A stretch of DNA of 57,973 nt from assembly GCA_021108005.1 (NCBI GenBank), contig JAIORS010000022.1, forward strand, positions 1 to 57,973, written 5' to 3'. Under the pieces are notes generated by a model, which did not search any database, had not been told where the DNA came from, and saw only the letters and a list, made by a program, of their open reading frames with translations. The DNA comes from Candidatus Aegiribacteria sp. GTDB lineage: Bacteria > Fermentibacterota > Fermentibacteria > Fermentibacterales > JCC-6. Positions within the stretch are counted from its first letter, which is position 1, and each line of letters opens with the position of its first letter. This document shows, piece after piece, positions 32,902-40,748 of this stretch. Both the position numbers and the translations under genes were made by a program.

Positions 32902-35286
32902 CTAGATACTATCTCCATAAATCTGGATATTATCAAGATTCCAGCCACCGCGAAAATCATTTAAATTAGAACAAAGACCATACCTGAGGAAGAAGTACGA
33001 ACTTGTGGAATAATCATTGAATTTGCTGCTGATGTCTTTATTCTCGTAAGCCCAGCTATTCTGATTATCGATATACGTTCTAACCAGCTGCCAATCGGTT
33101 GAAACAGAGTCAGGTGGCGTTTCCGTATCGGAAAAACCCACCCAGACCAATCCATTATCCGCCGGCGCCAGCCTGACGCATCGGTAGTGCCTCAGAGTTA
33201 TCTTGTTATATGTGCCTGCTGCGGGCATTTCGTAGGCAGGTGAAACCAACAGGGAAAACGCGTCATTTTCGTAGTATCCATCGTAGGATCCTGGTAGATC
33301 CGGTGGGATTACGATTCCGAGATCTGTTCCGGCTATTCTATCGCCATTATCAACGGTCAGGGCCGGATCAATATCCGGTACAAATACAGGTTCACCAAAT
33401 TGCCAGTCATCTTTCTTTCCGCTATGTACCCATTCGTTAACAGGGAAAAGGTCAGGTGTGTATATTCCTTCAAAGTCGGAATACTTGAACATCGTATTTA
33501 CAGGTACTTCTTCCCTGCTATCTGATCTCTCGATCATCTCAATTGTTCCATGAATAGCCGTATTCAGTTTTATTACAGGAAGGAAGCTGTTTCTAGGCAG
33601 GCTGTTCGGATCAGTACCGTTATCGGAGTTGTCGCGACACTGATAATCCGTTCCTGTGTTGATACATCCCCATTCAAAGGATCCTGAAATATCCTCATCA
33701 TGCTTCTCTATTTTTATGGCGAGATTCTCACCGGCAGGAAGCACGAAGGGGGTATCGAGAACGATCTTATTCCAGCAGCTGCTGTCCGCTTCCCATGTGG
33801 CTGTCCATTCAACATCCGCTGCGACGTAATCCATGGTTGCCTTGACCCATTCGCCGGTTGCAGCAAAAACATCATCGCTAATTGCGCTCATGTAGACATC
33901 GACATCTTCGTATGTAAATGAGTCAGCAAATGTAGGACAGAAAGTCGCTTCGAATTCAATTGATGTGATGATCATTTCCGGGAAATCTTCATCCGTTCTT
34001 TCGAAATCCTCCAGCGGCATGATAGGTTCACCAATATCCTCTTCCGGGTACCAGATTCCCCACGCTACCGTGTTGCTGAAGAGCAGCCAGCCATCGCTGG
34101 TGTATTTTAAAGCTTCCCATGGGGAGTAATGCACTCTGCGTGTTGGGTCATCACCGATCTGCTGAAAACATACCCCGGAGTAATCGTCACCGTCATTCGC
34201 TTTTGTCAGCAAAGTTGTTTCGGCATCGAAATCGTACAGGACCGAATGCTCTCCAGCTTCGGAATAGACTGAGAACAACGGGTCCGGGAGATCGTTGTTT
34301 ACCGGATGTGTGTTTTCGATTACCCTCATTATAGTTCCCGTTTCGTCTTTGAAACTGCTGCCCATCACAAACGTTCCTGAGGCCTCCTCCGCATTCATTG
34401 TGATTATGGGAACTTGAAGAGTTTTCAGGAATTCAGCAATGGGAGAGGGGTGAATACCCGACTCCATGTGTCTGAGAATAAGCAGGTTAATACTTGAATA
34501 ATCGTAAGTTTGCAGACAATCGTCTGTCAATAACGATACTGTATAACCCCACAAGCACAATCTGTTCACCATCAAGCTTTCATGAATGGTTGGAACCGAT
34601 GAGCCAGCTACACCTGGAACATTGAAGGCGATATTTCCTTTGATTTCCGGCCATCCACCGAAACTAGGATCGATGTTATGGCTAAGTCCAAGGTTCCGAG
34701 GTGTTACAGTTGTAAACATCACGGTCTGATATACATTACCAGCGTATTCCGATGAAAGTTCAACTCTTATCTGAATATGCCTGATCAGATCCCGCTGTTC
34801 CTCTGTAGTAAGGGTATCAATTGTTACTCCGTCTTCATCAAGGTAAGTAAACGAGAGATTGGTTAGATCGCTACCTACCGTCTGTAGAACTGCACCAGTT
34901 CTATCGGTTATCTGAACGTGTCCGGATGTGAGAAGTTTGATTCTTCTGTATTCCGTATCCCCCAGAACCGCCTCAGCAGGGGAGTATGGATCGAAGTCAG
35001 CGTAAAACTCGATCTCATTTATAGCTGCCAATGTAATCGGGTGCCATTCATCATCGTCCCAATTCGGATTGGGCATATAGCCGGCCCAGATAATCGAGTT
35101 CGTCAAGGCTTCAATAACTTGCCTTCCTGAGATATTCAGTTCATTCTGCCTTCTTGAGAAATGGAACTCCTCTGTCCCCCTCGTAAGCAGAAGAAACACC
35201 GCTCCAAGCACAACTCCCAGGATCAAGGTTACAACCGTGATCTCGACAAGTGTCATGCCTTTTCTGCTTTTTTTCAGCCAATTCAT
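32902..35286 (-). CDS. Oversized prepilin with several surface domains
   Basis: The N-terminus KGMTLVEITVVTLILGVVLG is a type IV prepilin signal with the glycine cleavage site and E5-type glutamate, as in PilW-like subunits. It is 794 residues, far longer than normal pilins (150-350). After a pilin-like region (to about 210) comes an alpha/beta segment (about 225-335) resembling a ThuA/amidotransferase-like fold. A beta-sandwich follows (about 440-560), and then a C-terminal MAM- or jelly-roll-like domain ending NDFRGGWNLDNIQIYGDSI. A tip adhesin or carbohydrate-binding role is inferred. Domain assignments are by eye. An AGGAGG site precedes the ATG. Confidence 0.65.
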   Translation of the reverse strand: MNWLKKSRKGMTLVEITVVTLILGVVLGAVFLLLTRGTEEFHFSRRQNELNISGRQVIEALTNSIIWAGYMPNPNWDDDEWHPITLAAINEIEFYADFDPYSPAEAVLGDTEYRRIKLLTSGHVQITDRTGAVLQTVGSDLTNLSFTYLDEDGVTIDTLTTEEQRDLIRHIQIRVELSSEYAGNVYQTVMFTTVTPRNLGLSHNIDPSFGGWPEIKGNIAFNVPGVAGSSVPTIHESLMVNRLCLWGYTVSLLTDDCLQTYDYSSINLLILRHMESGIHPSPIAEFLKTLQVPIITMNAEEASGTFVMGSSFKDETGTIMRVIENTHPVNNDLPDPLFSVYSEAGEHSVLYDFDAETTLLTKANDGDDYSGVCFQQIGDDPTRRVHYSPWEALKYTSDGWLLFSNTVAWGIWYPEEDIGEPIMPLEDFERTDEDFPEMIITSIEFEATFCPTFADSFTYEDVDVYMSAISDDVFAATGEWVKATMDYVAADVEWTATWEADSSCWNKIVLDTPFVLPAGENLAIKIEKHDEDISGSFEWGCINTGTDYQCRDNSDNGTDPNSLPRNSFLPVIKLNTAIHGTIEMIERSDSREEVPVNTMFKYSDFEGIYTPDLFPVNEWVHSGKKDDWQFGEPVFVPDIDPALTVDNGDRIAGTDLGIVIPPDLPGSYDGYYENDAFSLLVSPAYEMPAAGTYNKITLRHYRCVRLAPADNGLVWVGFSDTETPPDSVSTDWQLVRTYIDNQNSWAYENKDISSKFNDYSTSSYFFLRYGLCSNLNDFRGGWNLDNIQIYGDSI

Positions 35287-35304
35287 TACAATCCTCCTGC
35301 TCTA

Positions 35305-35679
35305 TTAAAACACTGTACTCAAAGTTACCGATTCGGACGAACCTGAGCCGCTCCATGTAACTTTGCATACAACAAGTTTTGCCTCTGAATACTCCACACT
35401 GTAATCACTGACAGTCAGTTCCCTTGTGTAAGTCATCCCTCCAAGGACTATGTCTATTGAAGTTACCCCTGTGGCAAGCTCAACCGTTCTGCACTGCTCA
35501 AGACCCTGCCTGCACAGTTCCAGTGCTTTTGTTTTATCATCGACTTTATTTGAGTTGTCTATCATCTGGGTGATGAAATAACCAAGACTCACAATAAGAA
35601 TCGCCAGTATAACACTTGCGACAAGCAACTCAACCAGGGTAAATCCTCCCTGATTGCTTCTACGAAATTTGCTTCTCAT
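35305..35679 (-). CDS. Type IV prepilin-like protein (PilV/GspI type)
   Basis: The 124-residue protein has a textbook prepilin leader: a short basic stretch, then GGFTLVELLVASVILAILI with cleavage after the glycine. The C-terminal two thirds are short, with two cysteines in LCRQGLEQCRTVE. Small size and position in the cluster suggest a minor pseudopilin that primes assembly. It follows the gene at 35692 by 12 bases and precedes the large prepilin by 18, so the genes are co-transcribed. Confidence 0.85.
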   Translation of the reverse strand: MRSKFRRSNQGGFTLVELLVASVILAILIVSLGYFITQMIDNSNKVDDKTKALELCRQGLEQCRTVELATGVTSIDIVLGGMTYTRELTVSDYSVEYSEAKLVVCKVTWSGSGSSESVTLSTVF

Positions 35680-35691
35680 AATTCCCTCCCG

Positions 35692-36087
35692 TTAATAGTT
35701 AATCGACTTGATTTCAATATCGTTTCCACTGCTACGATTTAGATAAATCCTTCGTACAAGTTTAACTTCTTCTCCCGAAGACGATGTGACCTCCACAGAC
35801 AGTTCGCGTTCATTCTCTGAAAGTGTAAATACAGATGTTCTGATAATGAAATCGGAATTGCCGGCAATCTCACTGTAAGTCGATGAACCGTCTTCTGGAA
35901 CATCCGCCAGATAGTCAATATCGGCCATTCGATCTGTCGCCAGTATCAGAGCGTTTCTTTTGTCTGACAGCTCCATTCTTCCCAAAATGAAAAATTTCAT
36001 GGAGAACAGGATTGCGGAGACAATCAGTATCAGGGCTATCGCTGGAAGCAACGCTTTCTGAAGGGAAAAATGATTTCTATTCATCAT
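35692..36087 (-). CDS. Small pseudopilin-like membrane protein
   Basis: The 131-residue product has an N-terminal helix (LLPAIALILIVSAILFSMKF) and an ordered, charged remainder. It lacks a clear prepilin cleavage motif but has the size and layout of PilV/GspI-like subunits and lies in the pilin operon. The frame is open slightly further upstream, but ATG at 36087 overlaps the stop of the previous gene as ATGA and is the likely start. No family is certain. Confidence 0.65.
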   Translation of the reverse strand: MMNRNHFSLQKALLPAIALILIVSAILFSMKFFILGRMELSDKRNALILATDRMADIDYLADVPEDGSSTYSEIAGNSDFIIRTSVFTLSENERELSVEVTSSSGEEVKLVRRIYLNRSSGNDIEIKSINY

Positions 36088-37538
36088 CCCCTGCCCCCCC
36101 ACACCGGTGTTGATAAAACCATCCTGTCTCTATTCGAAGAACCAACTCTGAATGTATATGTATTGTCCAGAACGGGTTCCTCACCGGGTATACCTGTTGA
36201 AATTTCCAGTTCCACCAGAACGTCTTCGGATCCGGACGGATCCAGATACAGCAGCAGAGTTTCTTCTGAGATGACAGCTACATCAATTCCCCCCGAACCA
36301 TTGAAATCCTCCGGAATGCCTCTGTCAATCGAGAATAAGCTCCGGTTCGAGGAATCGGAATTGACTATTTCAAGATTATCGTTTCTGTTACCAGTTAAAG
36401 TATTCCGATAAGAATAAATTCTTCCTTTGTACTCTTTGAGAACCGCGCTGTAACTATCAAGATTTTGAAAACCATTTATAAGATACTTCCTCCAGCGTAT
36501 CTCCGAATCCTCATGATTCCATAGTCCTCCCAATCCTTGTCTGCCTTCGATATATCCCCATGCGATTAACTCAGCGGAATCTAATTCATCTTTAATAAGC
36601 ATTCCTCTGGCCGAAGATATGCAGGCGAGACATCCCTGGCTTGCCCAAACCGTATCGTAATTCCCGTCAAGATCAAAATCTCCGAAAAAGACATCTTTAA
36701 TCACAGGAGGATCGAGTATGAAAACCGCAGATCCATCAGGCGACGTTTCACCGTATATTCTTCCATCCGGCATAATCACAGGACATGTTCCGAATACAGA
36801 ATACAGATATCTGGTTTCTCCGGTATCGAGTTCAATGGCAATCCCTGCGTTAAGTCCATCAGTTATAACAACTACAGGACCTGATTCTGTAAGGCCTGTG
36901 GTGATAACCGAATGTTCTGAAATCCCTAAATCCCCAAGAGAATAGGATGATGATGTGCCATCACCGGATATGGTGAAAAGAACATCAACCGTAGGGTTAT
37001 CGCAGGCAAGGACACAGAGAGGTTCAATATTGGGCATGCACTCCTTTAAAATCCAGCTGTCCGGTATGGAACAAATCGCTATTGGAAAACCTGGTCTGTT
37101 CCTTACCGCATCCAGTTCTCTCAGATATACCAGAATACTGTCATCCGTATTTCCCGCAACCAGTAGACCACTGCGGGATGGAACAACTGATAATCCGGAA
37201 ATCCCTGGAAACTCGTATCGAAGTGTTCTGCTTTCGACTGGTGCAGATTCAATAATCCGGAATTGCGATACCATTCCACCGGTTTCAACAGGCGGGATGG
37301 AATCCTCAGGAGATATCCTGCTGGAAGCATACATGAATTCGGCATATTCAACTGCTGCATCGTGTGATAATTCTGCCTGCGCCGATTTTTCCATCGTTTT
37401 CTGTCTTTCAGATACTTTCGAGACGTATCCGAATAGAAGTGATATAGAAAGCAGAACGGATGCGGAAGCAGCCGCGGTAAGGCCAAGAGCTGTTCCCATT
37501 GAAGTCTTGTTAAACGATCTGTCTTTTTTTCTTTTCAT
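36084..37538 (-). CDS. Membrane-anchored propeller-like protein of the pilin operon
   Basis: The 484 residues begin with basic residues and a membrane helix (ASASVLLSISLLFGYVSKV). They continue with repeated beta-rich units that resemble a propeller, including FGDFDLDGNYDTVWA, a DxDxDG-type calcium loop as in FG-GAP/VCBS repeats. It is the first gene of the six-gene operon with prepilins and PilX-like proteins, the position PilY1-type propellers often share with minor pilins. A role as a PilY1 analogue is my inference; there is no sequence match I can claim. No strong Shine-Dalgarno precedes the ATG. Confidence 0.55.
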   Translation of the reverse strand: MKRKKDRSFNKTSMGTALGLTAAASASVLLSISLLFGYVSKVSERQKTMEKSAQAELSHDAAVEYAEFMYASSRISPEDSIPPVETGGMVSQFRIIESAPVESRTLRYEFPGISGLSVVPSRSGLLVAGNTDDSILVYLRELDAVRNRPGFPIAICSIPDSWILKECMPNIEPLCVLACDNPTVDVLFTISGDGTSSSYSLGDLGISEHSVITTGLTESGPVVVITDGLNAGIAIELDTGETRYLYSVFGTCPVIMPDGRIYGETSPDGSAVFILDPPVIKDVFFGDFDLDGNYDTVWASQGCLACISSARGMLIKDELDSAELIAWGYIEGRQGLGGLWNHEDSEIRWRKYLINGFQNLDSYSAVLKEYKGRIYSYRNTLTGNRNDNLEIVNSDSSNRSLFSIDRGIPEDFNGSGGIDVAVISEETLLLYLDPSGSEDVLVELEISTGIPGEEPVLDNTYTFRVGSSNRDRMVLSTPVWGGRG

Positions 37539-37672: not shown

Positions 37673-38692
37673 TTACACTATTCTCCCAAGAAGGTCTGAT
37701 TCTGTAGTCTCCTGAAGCTCTGCCCGTTTAATGGTATTTCTGGCATGTTCCAGCCCTACATAGAACCTCTCAGAATACAGTTCGTAGTCATCGCGCAGCC
37801 TCGGTGGTGTCATGTTCACAGTAATTACGTTCGCTCCTGCGTTGAAACACTTCAGCTGTCCATCCTCCCTCAACCGCTCGAAAGTACTGGTGGCAGGAAT
37901 GAGAGTGTTCTTAAGGTACAGCCTCATGGCTGCGATGAACCGCAGCCCCAGGTCCACATTTCCTACCTGATGATCTTCAAGAGGCGTACCCCGGGCTGGA
38001 AGGAACACTGAAATACTTGACATTTCAACTTTCAGCTCCTTCATTAGAAACAGATCATCAACCAGTGAGTCTATCGTCTGCCCCGGCAGGCCCAGCAAAG
38101 GTCCGGAGCCAATGTGATACCCGTGTTTTCTAAGGGTCCGCAACCACTCAATTCTCTTCGAAAGGGTAAATCCAGGTTTCATCTTCGAGAAGAGGTCTGC
38201 ATTGGAGGTTTCATGCTTCAATATGAATTTCCTCGCCCCCGCCCTGTACCATATATCGAGGTCATTCACATTATGAATACCCACACACAGCAAAACCATC
38301 ATCCCCATCTCGGATATTCTACTGATTACGCTTCCAAGCCATTCCGCATTGTACTCTTCGCTCTCCGCAGCCTGCAGAAAGAAAGTTTTGATACCGTTTT
38401 TCCTTGCCCTCCGGGCAACGGAAACTATCTCGTCCGGTTCAAGTGTAAACCTTGGCGCTTCTGTGTTTTCAACACGCATGCCGCAGTACAGGCAACTGCA
38501 CCTGCAGGTGTTCGCGAATTCTATAACAGCCCTGATGAAGGCTCTTTCTCCAAAATATTTCTTTCTTACTTCCCTTGCAGCTCCGTAAAGCAGGTCAGCT
38601 TCGGAATCGGATGACAGGAGAACAGCTTTCAGATCATCCTTCGCAAAACCATGATTCAAACATTTCTCAATCCAGTTATTATCAATTTTCAA
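37673..38692 (-). CDS. HydE-like radical SAM enzyme
   Basis: The protein carries the radical SAM cluster motif C63-x3-C67-x2-C70 (CRCSCLYCG) and resembles HydE, the [FeFe]-hydrogenase maturase, over its length. Matching blocks include KTFFLQAAES, LKHETSNADLFSKMKPG and GPLLGLPGQTIDSLVDDL. HydE, PylB and biotin synthase share this fold. No hydF, hydG or hydrogenase gene is in the window, so a maturase role is not proven. The start appears to be TTG at 38692, seven bases after the AroE-like stop. It ends a three-gene operon with an AroE-like protein and another radical SAM enzyme. Confidence 0.72.
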   Translation of the reverse strand: MKIDNNWIEKCLNHGFAKDDLKAVLLSSDSEADLLYGAAREVRKKYFGERAFIRAVIEFANTCRCSCLYCGMRVENTEAPRFTLEPDEIVSVARRARKNGIKTFFLQAAESEEYNAEWLGSVISRISEMGMMVLLCVGIHNVNDLDIWYRAGARKFILKHETSNADLFSKMKPGFTLSKRIEWLRTLRKHGYHIGSGPLLGLPGQTIDSLVDDLFLMKELKVEMSSISVFLPARGTPLEDHQVGNVDLGLRFIAAMRLYLKNTLIPATSTFERLREDGQLKCFNAGANVITVNMTPPRLRDDYELYSERFYVGLEHARNTIKRAELQETTESDLLGRIV

Positions 38693-38698
38693 CAGTCG

Positions 38699-39508
38699 TT
38701 ACGACCCTTCTTCAAGTCTCTTGCGCACCATTTCAAGAACCTCATCAATATCAGGTGCAATACCCGTCCATATTTCAAAGGATCTCGCAGCCTGATTCAC
38801 AAGCATGACTTCCCCTGTATATACTTCCACCTGATTAACATGAAGATCGTTTCTCCAGTGCCAGTTTCTGTTGTAATTCATGTCAGCGAATATTCTGTTC
38901 TCAAGCAGTGATTTCTCCACCGGAAATGCATCATCGTTTTTCCATCCAAGTGTAGTTGCGTTCACCACAGTCCCGCCGTCAGTTCTTCTTAAAGCATCGT
39001 TAAGCTCATCCAGTTTCATAGCGGAGGAAAAGCCAGTCCAGTTCTCGGGATTCCTGCAGTATAACCCATATCGCAAATGCTTCTTGTGCATAACGTAATC
39101 TACTGCGCGGGCTGCGCCTCCGCTGCCAACAATGAAAAAAGGTTCGATAAGACCATTATCATCGATACAGCGGTCGAAACCGTAAATATCTGTGTTGTAA
39201 CCGGCAATATGCCGGCCAACCGCTTTCATCGTGTTTATTACTCCTGAACCTTTTGCATCATTACTTATCTCATTACACATTTCCGCAGCCGCTGCCTTGT
39301 GAGGATAAGTAACGTTCAGGCCGGTGATGCCGCTATTGAACAATTCTGAAACCGATTTCGTGAATCTGTTTGGAAAAACAGGATAGGGTGCATATTCACC
39401 ACTTAAACCGGATGACCTGAAGAACTCTTCATGAATCAGTGGTGACAGAGAAAAAACTAACGGCCAGCCTATCAGACCAAATCTGAAACCGTTCTCTGTA
39501 TCAGTCAT
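38699..39508 (-). CDS. aroE: Shikimate 5-dehydrogenase family protein
   Basis: AroE reduces 3-dehydroshikimate with NADPH in chorismate synthesis. This 269-residue member has the substrate-binding start GWPLVFSLSPLIHEEF, the catalytic lysine in GLNVTYPHKAA, the aspartate in AGYNTDIYGFD, and the nucleotide loop FIVGSGGAARAV. All key residues are present, so it should be an active dehydrogenase of the AroE/YdiB group. The start overlaps the radical SAM gene by 8 bases. Being sandwiched between two radical SAM genes, with no other aro gene near, leaves open a specialised substrate. Confidence 0.85.
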   Translation of the reverse strand: MTDTENGFRFGLIGWPLVFSLSPLIHEEFFRSSGLSGEYAPYPVFPNRFTKSVSELFNSGITGLNVTYPHKAAAAEMCNEISNDAKGSGVINTMKAVGRHIAGYNTDIYGFDRCIDDNGLIEPFFIVGSGGAARAVDYVMHKKHLRYGLYCRNPENWTGFSSAMKLDELNDALRRTDGGTVVNATTLGWKNDDAFPVEKSLLENRIFADMNYNRNWHWRNDLHVNQVEVYTGEVMLVNQAARSFEIWTGIAPDIDEVLEMVRKRLEEGS

Positions 39509-40748
39509 GTCTCATTCTCCGTATCCTCTGGAAAAGTCTGTATAGCCAATCTCCAGGACCATGTTTTTTGTAAAACACAGGCTCAAAAAAGGTACACTCT
39601 TCGTCTACCCGGGCTTTTCTTTTCAGATATTCCGCAAGTGGAGAATGTGCGTATACCCTTATCGTACCGATATTCACAAATGTCGACTTCCACCCGAGCG
39701 TAAGTCTTACCCTGAGCATGAACCAGATTTTCACGAGGAAAGCCCAAAATCCCTCAGAGGGATTACCATTGAAAAAATTAATACCGACCTGAAGCCCCGC
39801 CTCCCTTGCAGATCTTACAGCAGGTAGAAGATCCGCAGCTTTCATCCTTTTCCCGAGCATTTTCAGGCCCTTATCTGTTATTGCATCCGGAGAGAAGTCA
39901 ACCTTTACAGCACCTGCAATTTTCATTCTCTCAAGCTGTTTACGTGTTATGTTCTCATCGATCCATGCACTCCAGGATATTTCGCAGTCAGCTTGCTCAA
40001 GAGCTTCAAGCAGTTCTTCAAAATATTTCTCCGGAGCGTTGAATACGGAATCAACGAACTGAAATCGGGATACTCCCAGACTCATAAGTTCCGTGACATC
40101 CCTGATGACCTGGTCTACAGGTCTCTCTCTGATACGAGCCCCGCTTAAATATCCATATGTGCAGTAAGTGCAGCCAAAGGCACAACCTCTTCTGCTCTGT
40201 ATACCTATTGCGTCAGGAAGTGTATAAGAGGATACATCAATAAATCTGTAATCCGGAGATGACAGTTTCCCGAGATCCGCCGGTTTCCAGGGCAGAATCC
40301 TCCCGCCATTCCATCCTTCTACCATAGTATCCCTCTCAAGGTGATCTATAAGTTCGGGGAATATTATCTCTCCCTCACCGGGTATTCCATAATCGATTCT
40401 GGAGTACTGCTCCATAATGATATCCGAATATATCGAGAACCCTGTGCCTCCAGCTATCACAATTCCATCCCAGGATTCAAGTACCTTCATTATTTCAGCA
40501 AAAGGTTTTACATAGGAGTAGGTAACCGGATACGAACTGTCATCAATATTCCTCAGGGATATCGCTATAATGTCGGGATTAAAGGTATGAATTGCTTCAT
40601 GCAATACTGTTCTGTAGTCATTGTCCAGGCTAAGATCCAGCCCTCTGACCTCGTGACGCGAAAGCTGACCCGCGAGAAAGGCCAGTCCGATGGGGAAAAT
40701 CGGAGCCTCAGGACGGCCTGTGGGGGATTGCGCCAGAAGAATTCTCAA
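39501..40748 (-). CDS. B12-type radical SAM protein
   Basis: The N-terminal 140 residues resemble a cobalamin-binding Rossmann domain (GLAFLAGQLSRHEVRGLDL, VIAGGTGFSIYS), but the DxHxxG base motif is not seen. The radical SAM core has C189-x3-C193-x2-C196 (RGCAFGCTYCTYG). The layout is that of class B radical SAM methyltransferases and related enzymes. The start is TTG at 40748 with GAGGG upstream. It heads the operon with the AroE-like and HydE-like genes. Its substrate cannot be told from sequence; the 48-base divergent gap to the CAP gene must hold its promoter in part. Confidence 0.75.
   Translation of the reverse strand: MRILLAQSPTGRPEAPIFPIGLAFLAGQLSRHEVRGLDLSLDNDYRTVLHEAIHTFNPDIIAISLRNIDDSSYPVTYSYVKPFAEIMKVLESWDGIVIAGGTGFSIYSDIIMEQYSRIDYGIPGEGEIIFPELIDHLERDTMVEGWNGGRILPWKPADLGKLSSPDYRFIDVSSYTLPDAIGIQSRRGCAFGCTYCTYGYLSGARIRERPVDQVIRDVTELMSLGVSRFQFVDSVFNAPEKYFEELLEALEQADCEISWSAWIDENITRKQLERMKIAGAVKVDFSPDAITDKGLKMLGKRMKAADLLPAVRSAREAGLQVGINFFNGNPSEGFWAFLVKIWFMLRVRLTLGWKSTFVNIGTIRVYAHSPLAEYLKRKARVDEECTFFEPVFYKKHGPGDWLYRLFQRIRRMRHD

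Follow-up and report, generated by a model that had tools for sequence, protein, structure and literature searches.

The window considered here is a stretch of 57,973 nucleotides of contig JAIORS010000022.1, from a Candidatus Aegiribacteria genome (G000; 97% complete, 3.2 Mb). On its minus strand lies an operon of three open reading frames, the first of which encodes a B12-type radical SAM protein of 415 aa (39501-40748), the second a shikimate dehydrogenase, AroE, of 269 aa (38699-39508) and the third a HydE-like radical SAM protein of 339 aa (37673-38692). The first two genes overlap by 8 bp and a gap of 6 bp separates the second from the third, such that the tight packing given in a preliminary description of the locus is borne out by the coordinates. 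So too are the domain identities given there, through Pfam matches to Radical_SAM and B12-binding in the first protein, Shikimate_dh_N and SDH_C in the second, and Radical_SAM and BATS in the third, as well as the statement that no hyd or further aro genes lie nearby, none having been recognised among the examined window genes around the trio. No trio protein attains the curated cutoff of any listed NCBIfam equivalog model, and there is no aminotransferase in the cluster. No riboswitch was found upstream of or near the operon, and a scan for promoters and terminators returned signals no better than those in shuffled sequences. Downstream of the trio on the same strand (32902-37538), two genes encode prepilin-like N-termini (GMTLVEI, GGFTLVELL); the gene adjoining the trio (36084-37538) has no Pfam match and is syntenic in Aegiribacteria, where it is mostly only 25-30% identical.

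The neighbourhood of the trio, a survey of which had been proposed in the preliminary description, was examined across one genome per species (GTDB r220). Scanning with an alignment of the HydE-like protein gave 34 loci, in a survey that relies on short motifs and that far relatives in other phyla could escape. All 34 are titled Candidatus Fermentibacteria, Aegiribacteria, Sabulitectum or Fermentibacter, or candidate division Hyd24-12. The order B12-type radical SAM protein, AroE, HydE-like protein recurs in 32 of these Fermentibacterota loci and the remaining two are cut by contig ends; the grouping is therefore not due to chance. Within the alignments, identity to the window protein is 61-82% for the HydE-like protein, 48-76% for the B12-type radical SAM protein and 40-68% for AroE. 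Literature searches found no account of this gene set.

Outside the window's genus, most lineages have aroK, the gene for shikimate kinase, directly after the trio. It follows the HydE-like gene co-directionally in genomes G019-G022, and convergently in Sabulitectum, G045 and G047, where HU and FtsK come next. In Aegiribacteria, aroK remains beside HU-FtsK and the trio is located elsewhere. The simplest reading of these arrangements is an ancestral cluster of genes for the B12-type radical SAM protein, AroE, the HydE-like protein and AroK, in which case the two radical SAM genes would sit with the enzymes that make shikimate and shikimate-3-phosphate.

AroE scores 155 bits against TIGR00507, below the cutoff of 200. 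The preliminary description held that it carries all catalytic residues, and indeed the complete catalytic and shikimate-binding set is found, with equivalents of E. coli S14, S16, T61, K65, N86, D102, Y215 and Q244. S14 is replaced by T in one protein and, in the NADP motif, G126 and G128 are retained while G129 becomes S in two. By these residues the protein qualifies as a shikimate dehydrogenase, and it is predicted to reduce 3-dehydroshikimate. It is also the sole Shikimate_dh_N protein found in a search of G000, and each of the other same-order genomes with a Shikimate_dh_N match has exactly one, nearly always beside a HydE-like gene. A second aroE elsewhere in the genome, for which a search had been suggested, was not found, the trio AroE being the only copy detected, and the notion that it is a redundant extra is rejected. 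The want of a second aroE is accounted for by the missing ordinary chorismate branch, described below.

The third protein raises the question of hydrogenase maturation, since its nearest known family and fold are those of HydE, the [FeFe] hydrogenase maturase (T. maritima 3ciw and others). Its AlphaFold2 model has the HydE fold, with a TM score of 0.91 to T. maritima HydE (3iiz) at 35% identity (25% to PylB). Like HydE it has a CxxxCxxC motif (C63/C67/C70), and it retains the HydE residues R54, Q107, E161, M224, T268, Y303 and Y306. Against a maturase with an accidental neighbourhood, however, several observations stand. The maturase works with HydG (and HydF), whereas in G000 neither a HydG over the cutoff, another gene that the preliminary description had proposed to look for, nor another HydE was found. 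HydG exceeds the cutoff in 13 of 30 genomes searched, many of which also have a second, true HydE that shares about 33% of its residues with the trio protein. Three such true HydE proteins score 268-292 bits on TIGR03956, above its cutoff of 254.6, whereas the window protein scores 242.9 and three other trio orthologues 223-238. Moreover, in a tree the trio proteins form a single clade with full support, set off by a long branch from the HydE of Fermentibacterota and T. maritima, and barrel positions conserved in HydE are altered in all 12 of them (S136C, T269S, A270T, M291T, P292V), as are, clade-wide, the further HydE-conserved positions R155K and E280L. The maturase reading is thus hardly credible, and for the window's genome a role as hydrogenase maturase is excluded. 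These sequences define a distinct clade of HydE-like radical SAM proteins, whose role is predicted to lie outside hydrogenase assembly. The clade has extra cysteines (C65, C136, C282) which are not conserved in HydE and could bind substrate or a cluster. One orthologue (L010 424-1431, on G004:C76) contains a single internal TAG, in a genome that is 67% complete, which reflects either sequencing error or decay.

The first protein matches the Pfam Radical_SAM family at 54 bits and, at its N-terminus, B12-binding at 38.7 bits (threshold 32.1), from which match its use of cobalamin is predicted. Its CxxxCxxC motif (C189/C193/C196) is invariant in 11 orthologues. Its best NCBIfam equivalogs are TIGR04072 (207/360) and BzaD (168/450), models for ladderane-type lipid biosynthesis and for a benzimidazole ligand, respectively; it is under the cutoff for all. 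The predicted structure is nearest to TsrM, AprD4 and MgmA, radical SAM proteins with a Rossmann N-domain with which it has the overall fold in common and, in the case of AprD4 and MgmA, a similar length, although identity to the three is just 18-21%. AprD4 is a radical 1,2-diol dehydratase. Considered as a methyltransferase, the protein gives a divided picture, with a B12-binding score above the threshold yet a diol dehydratase as fold neighbour. A second B12-binding radical SAM protein of G000 (C26:16832-18622, L165; 596 aa), TIGR04013-like at 74 bits and also found in G005, is unrelated to the trio.

Beyond the operon, Fermentibacterota keep three further enzymes of the route to shikimate-3-phosphate. 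AroB (3-dehydroquinate synthase) occurs in 36 of 42 genomes, AroQ (type II dehydroquinase) in 39, including all 24 of good quality, and shikimate kinase (AroK, SKI) in 35. G000 possesses all three, with AroB and AroQ encoded away from the trio in neighbourhoods (tatC, a transporter, GPDH, EF-P) that are uninformative; its AroK and AroB keep the expected active-site motifs, and AroB, as does AroE, scores below its NCBIfam equivalog cutoff. Chorismate synthase (AroC) is absent from 23 of 24 genomes of the same order, G000 among them, and is found in G018 only. A search of 11 genomes for the EPSP family gave one match each, except for G018 with two. Upon classification, the single matches of G000 and G020 proved to be MurA and the second match in G018 a true AroA; the remaining eight single matches were taken as MurA without separate classification. 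Chorismate-binding enzymes (TrpE/PabB/MenF) are absent from 40 of the 42 genomes, and those of the other two, G018 and G047, both score best as TrpE rather than PabB. A separate PabB was found in none of the 42, although TrpE-type proteins can have PabB activity, so that those of G018 and G047 might supply it. By contrast, dihydropteroate synthase (DHPS) is encoded in 40 of the 42 (in G000 at 305 bits, against a cutoff of 163). These absences are not a failure of the searches, because all searched families match in control genomes. Set against the canonical shikimate pathway (AroB-AroQ-AroE-AroK-AroA-AroC), the first four enzymes are present with their catalytic motifs, whereas AroA and AroC are missing in most genomes and AroE appears to be co-transcribed with two radical SAM enzymes.

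It might be argued that such a pattern is a relic, in which aromatic amino acid synthesis was recently lost, AroB, AroQ, AroE and AroK are its remnants and the radical SAM genes are unrelated neighbours. The retention of TrpE in G018 and G047, and of AroA and AroC in G018, fits such a history and indicates that the chorismate branch was lost lineage by lineage. The four remaining aro genes, however, are undamaged and present in nearly all members of several families, catalytic residues are retained in AroE proteins at 40-68% identity and the order with the radical SAM genes is fixed, which together make a relic improbable. Slightly less probable still is that the two radical SAM enzymes substitute for AroA and AroC by unrelated chemistry, giving chorismate or prephenate for the aromatic amino acids. 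The normal AroA substrate, shikimate-3-phosphate, would be on hand through AroK, but the enzymes that would draw on chorismate (TrpE/PabB/MenF types) are almost everywhere missing, and G018 has the trio's HydE-like gene in addition to ordinary AroA and AroC. Moreover, the MLS_C genome, a member of the group, has been reported to be without the synthesis of certain amino acids (PMC4846661), gaps which are consistent with loss of the chorismate branch.

What emerges instead is a conserved gene set in which a truncated shikimate pathway feeds the two radical SAM enzymes, a reading that we consider likely. The tie between trio and pathway is made by the single copy of AroE, the retention of AroB, AroQ and AroK alongside the loss of AroA and AroC, and the adjoining aroK. 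The proposal in the preliminary description of a small biosynthetic pathway is well supported, and its interpretation as a whole holds in part; what escaped it was the tie to a shikimate pathway that appears truncated and whose sole AroE lies in the operon. Gene set, synteny, residues and absences all point this way, whereas the use of shikimate(-3-phosphate) by the radical SAM enzymes, the order of their steps, the product and the source of its amine are what we infer in the following scheme. AroB and AroQ, encoded elsewhere in the genome, would make 3-dehydroshikimate, which the operon's AroE would reduce to shikimate and AroK phosphorylate to shikimate-3-phosphate. In genomes lacking EPSP synthase and chorismate synthase, shikimate or shikimate-3-phosphate would then pass to the two radical SAM enzymes, one of which may take a hydrogen from the ring carbon that neighbours the C3 phosphate (or a hydroxyl) and so expel that group. 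A radical at C4 beside the C3 phosphate would expel phosphate in the manner of radical diol dehydratases. AprD4 is such an enzyme and, with TsrM and MgmA, one of the solved structures nearest to the predicted model of the B12-type protein. The outcome would be an aromatic acid made without chorismate, anaerobically and, from shikimate-3-phosphate, in a redox-neutral manner.

As to the identity of this acid, shikimate (C7H10O5) and hydroxybenzoate have the same oxidation level and differ by two molecules of water, and the conversion of shikimate and NH3 to p-aminobenzoate (pABA) and three molecules of water requires no oxidant. pABA is favoured for this reason, and is the most economical guess given that DHPS is nearly universal and that none of the 42 genomes yielded a separate PabB. 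The assignment of the product as pABA for folate is nevertheless a tentative one; the lack of an aminotransferase gene in the cluster and the separate position of aroK in Aegiribacteria speak against the scheme, and pABA could be imported instead. The proposal as a whole, of an operon that ends a truncated shikimate pathway by a radical exit to an aromatic acid, with pABA as the leading guess, is to be taken as plausible at somewhat below an even chance. More speculatively, operon and AroK might be the genetic basis of an oxygen- and chorismate-independent radical SAM route from shikimate to pABA.

A phylum with a shikimate pathway that runs to shikimate or its 3-phosphate, mostly without the last two steps, and that is joined to two radical SAM enzymes, points to an undescribed exit from a central pathway, and the data suggest that shikimate is turned into some other compound, perhaps pABA, by a route not described before. 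Were the product pABA, it would bear on how genomes with the pterin branch of folate synthesis but no pABA branch obtain pABA, an open question raised by comparative genomics, for which a dehydroquinate-derived route has been named as a possible answer (De Crecy-Lagard et al. 2007, PMC1971073). Chorismate-independent pABA synthesis has likewise been predicted in Methanococcus maripaludis, and is known from CADD in Chlamydia and Nitrosomonas. CADD is reported to be a heme-oxygenase-like dimetal oxidase which sacrifices its own tyrosine and, unlike the trio, acts without radical SAM (PMC11965152).

The truncated pathway may also lead to something other than pABA, for instance to a quinone, a lipid or a cobamide ligand derived from a hydroxybenzoate or a cyclohexene, in which case the B12-type protein would act as a C-methyltransferase. 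The resemblance of this protein to the lipid and benzimidazole-ligand models noted above speaks for such a product, as do a weak UbiA-like domain joined to IspH in G000 and another weak UbiA match, of similar size, across the phylum. On the other hand, the gene set has no evident tailoring or transfer enzyme, and the main UbiA match is a decaprenyl-phosphate phosphoribosyltransferase (DPPR synthase; 279 bits, cutoff 234) and not a quinone prenyltransferase. A non-pABA product is given a chance not much below that of pABA, which is kept as the tentative choice. For the quinone in particular, a route through a UbiA-type prenyltransferase is judged improbable on the identity of that main match, although the weak domain fused to IspH might still serve it. 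The fusion itself (C181:13462-15183 of G000, L178:5463-7184) is an unusual protein of 573 aa with a C-terminal UbiA-like membrane domain, and a weak UbiA match in frames of similar size recurs in most Fermentibacterota.
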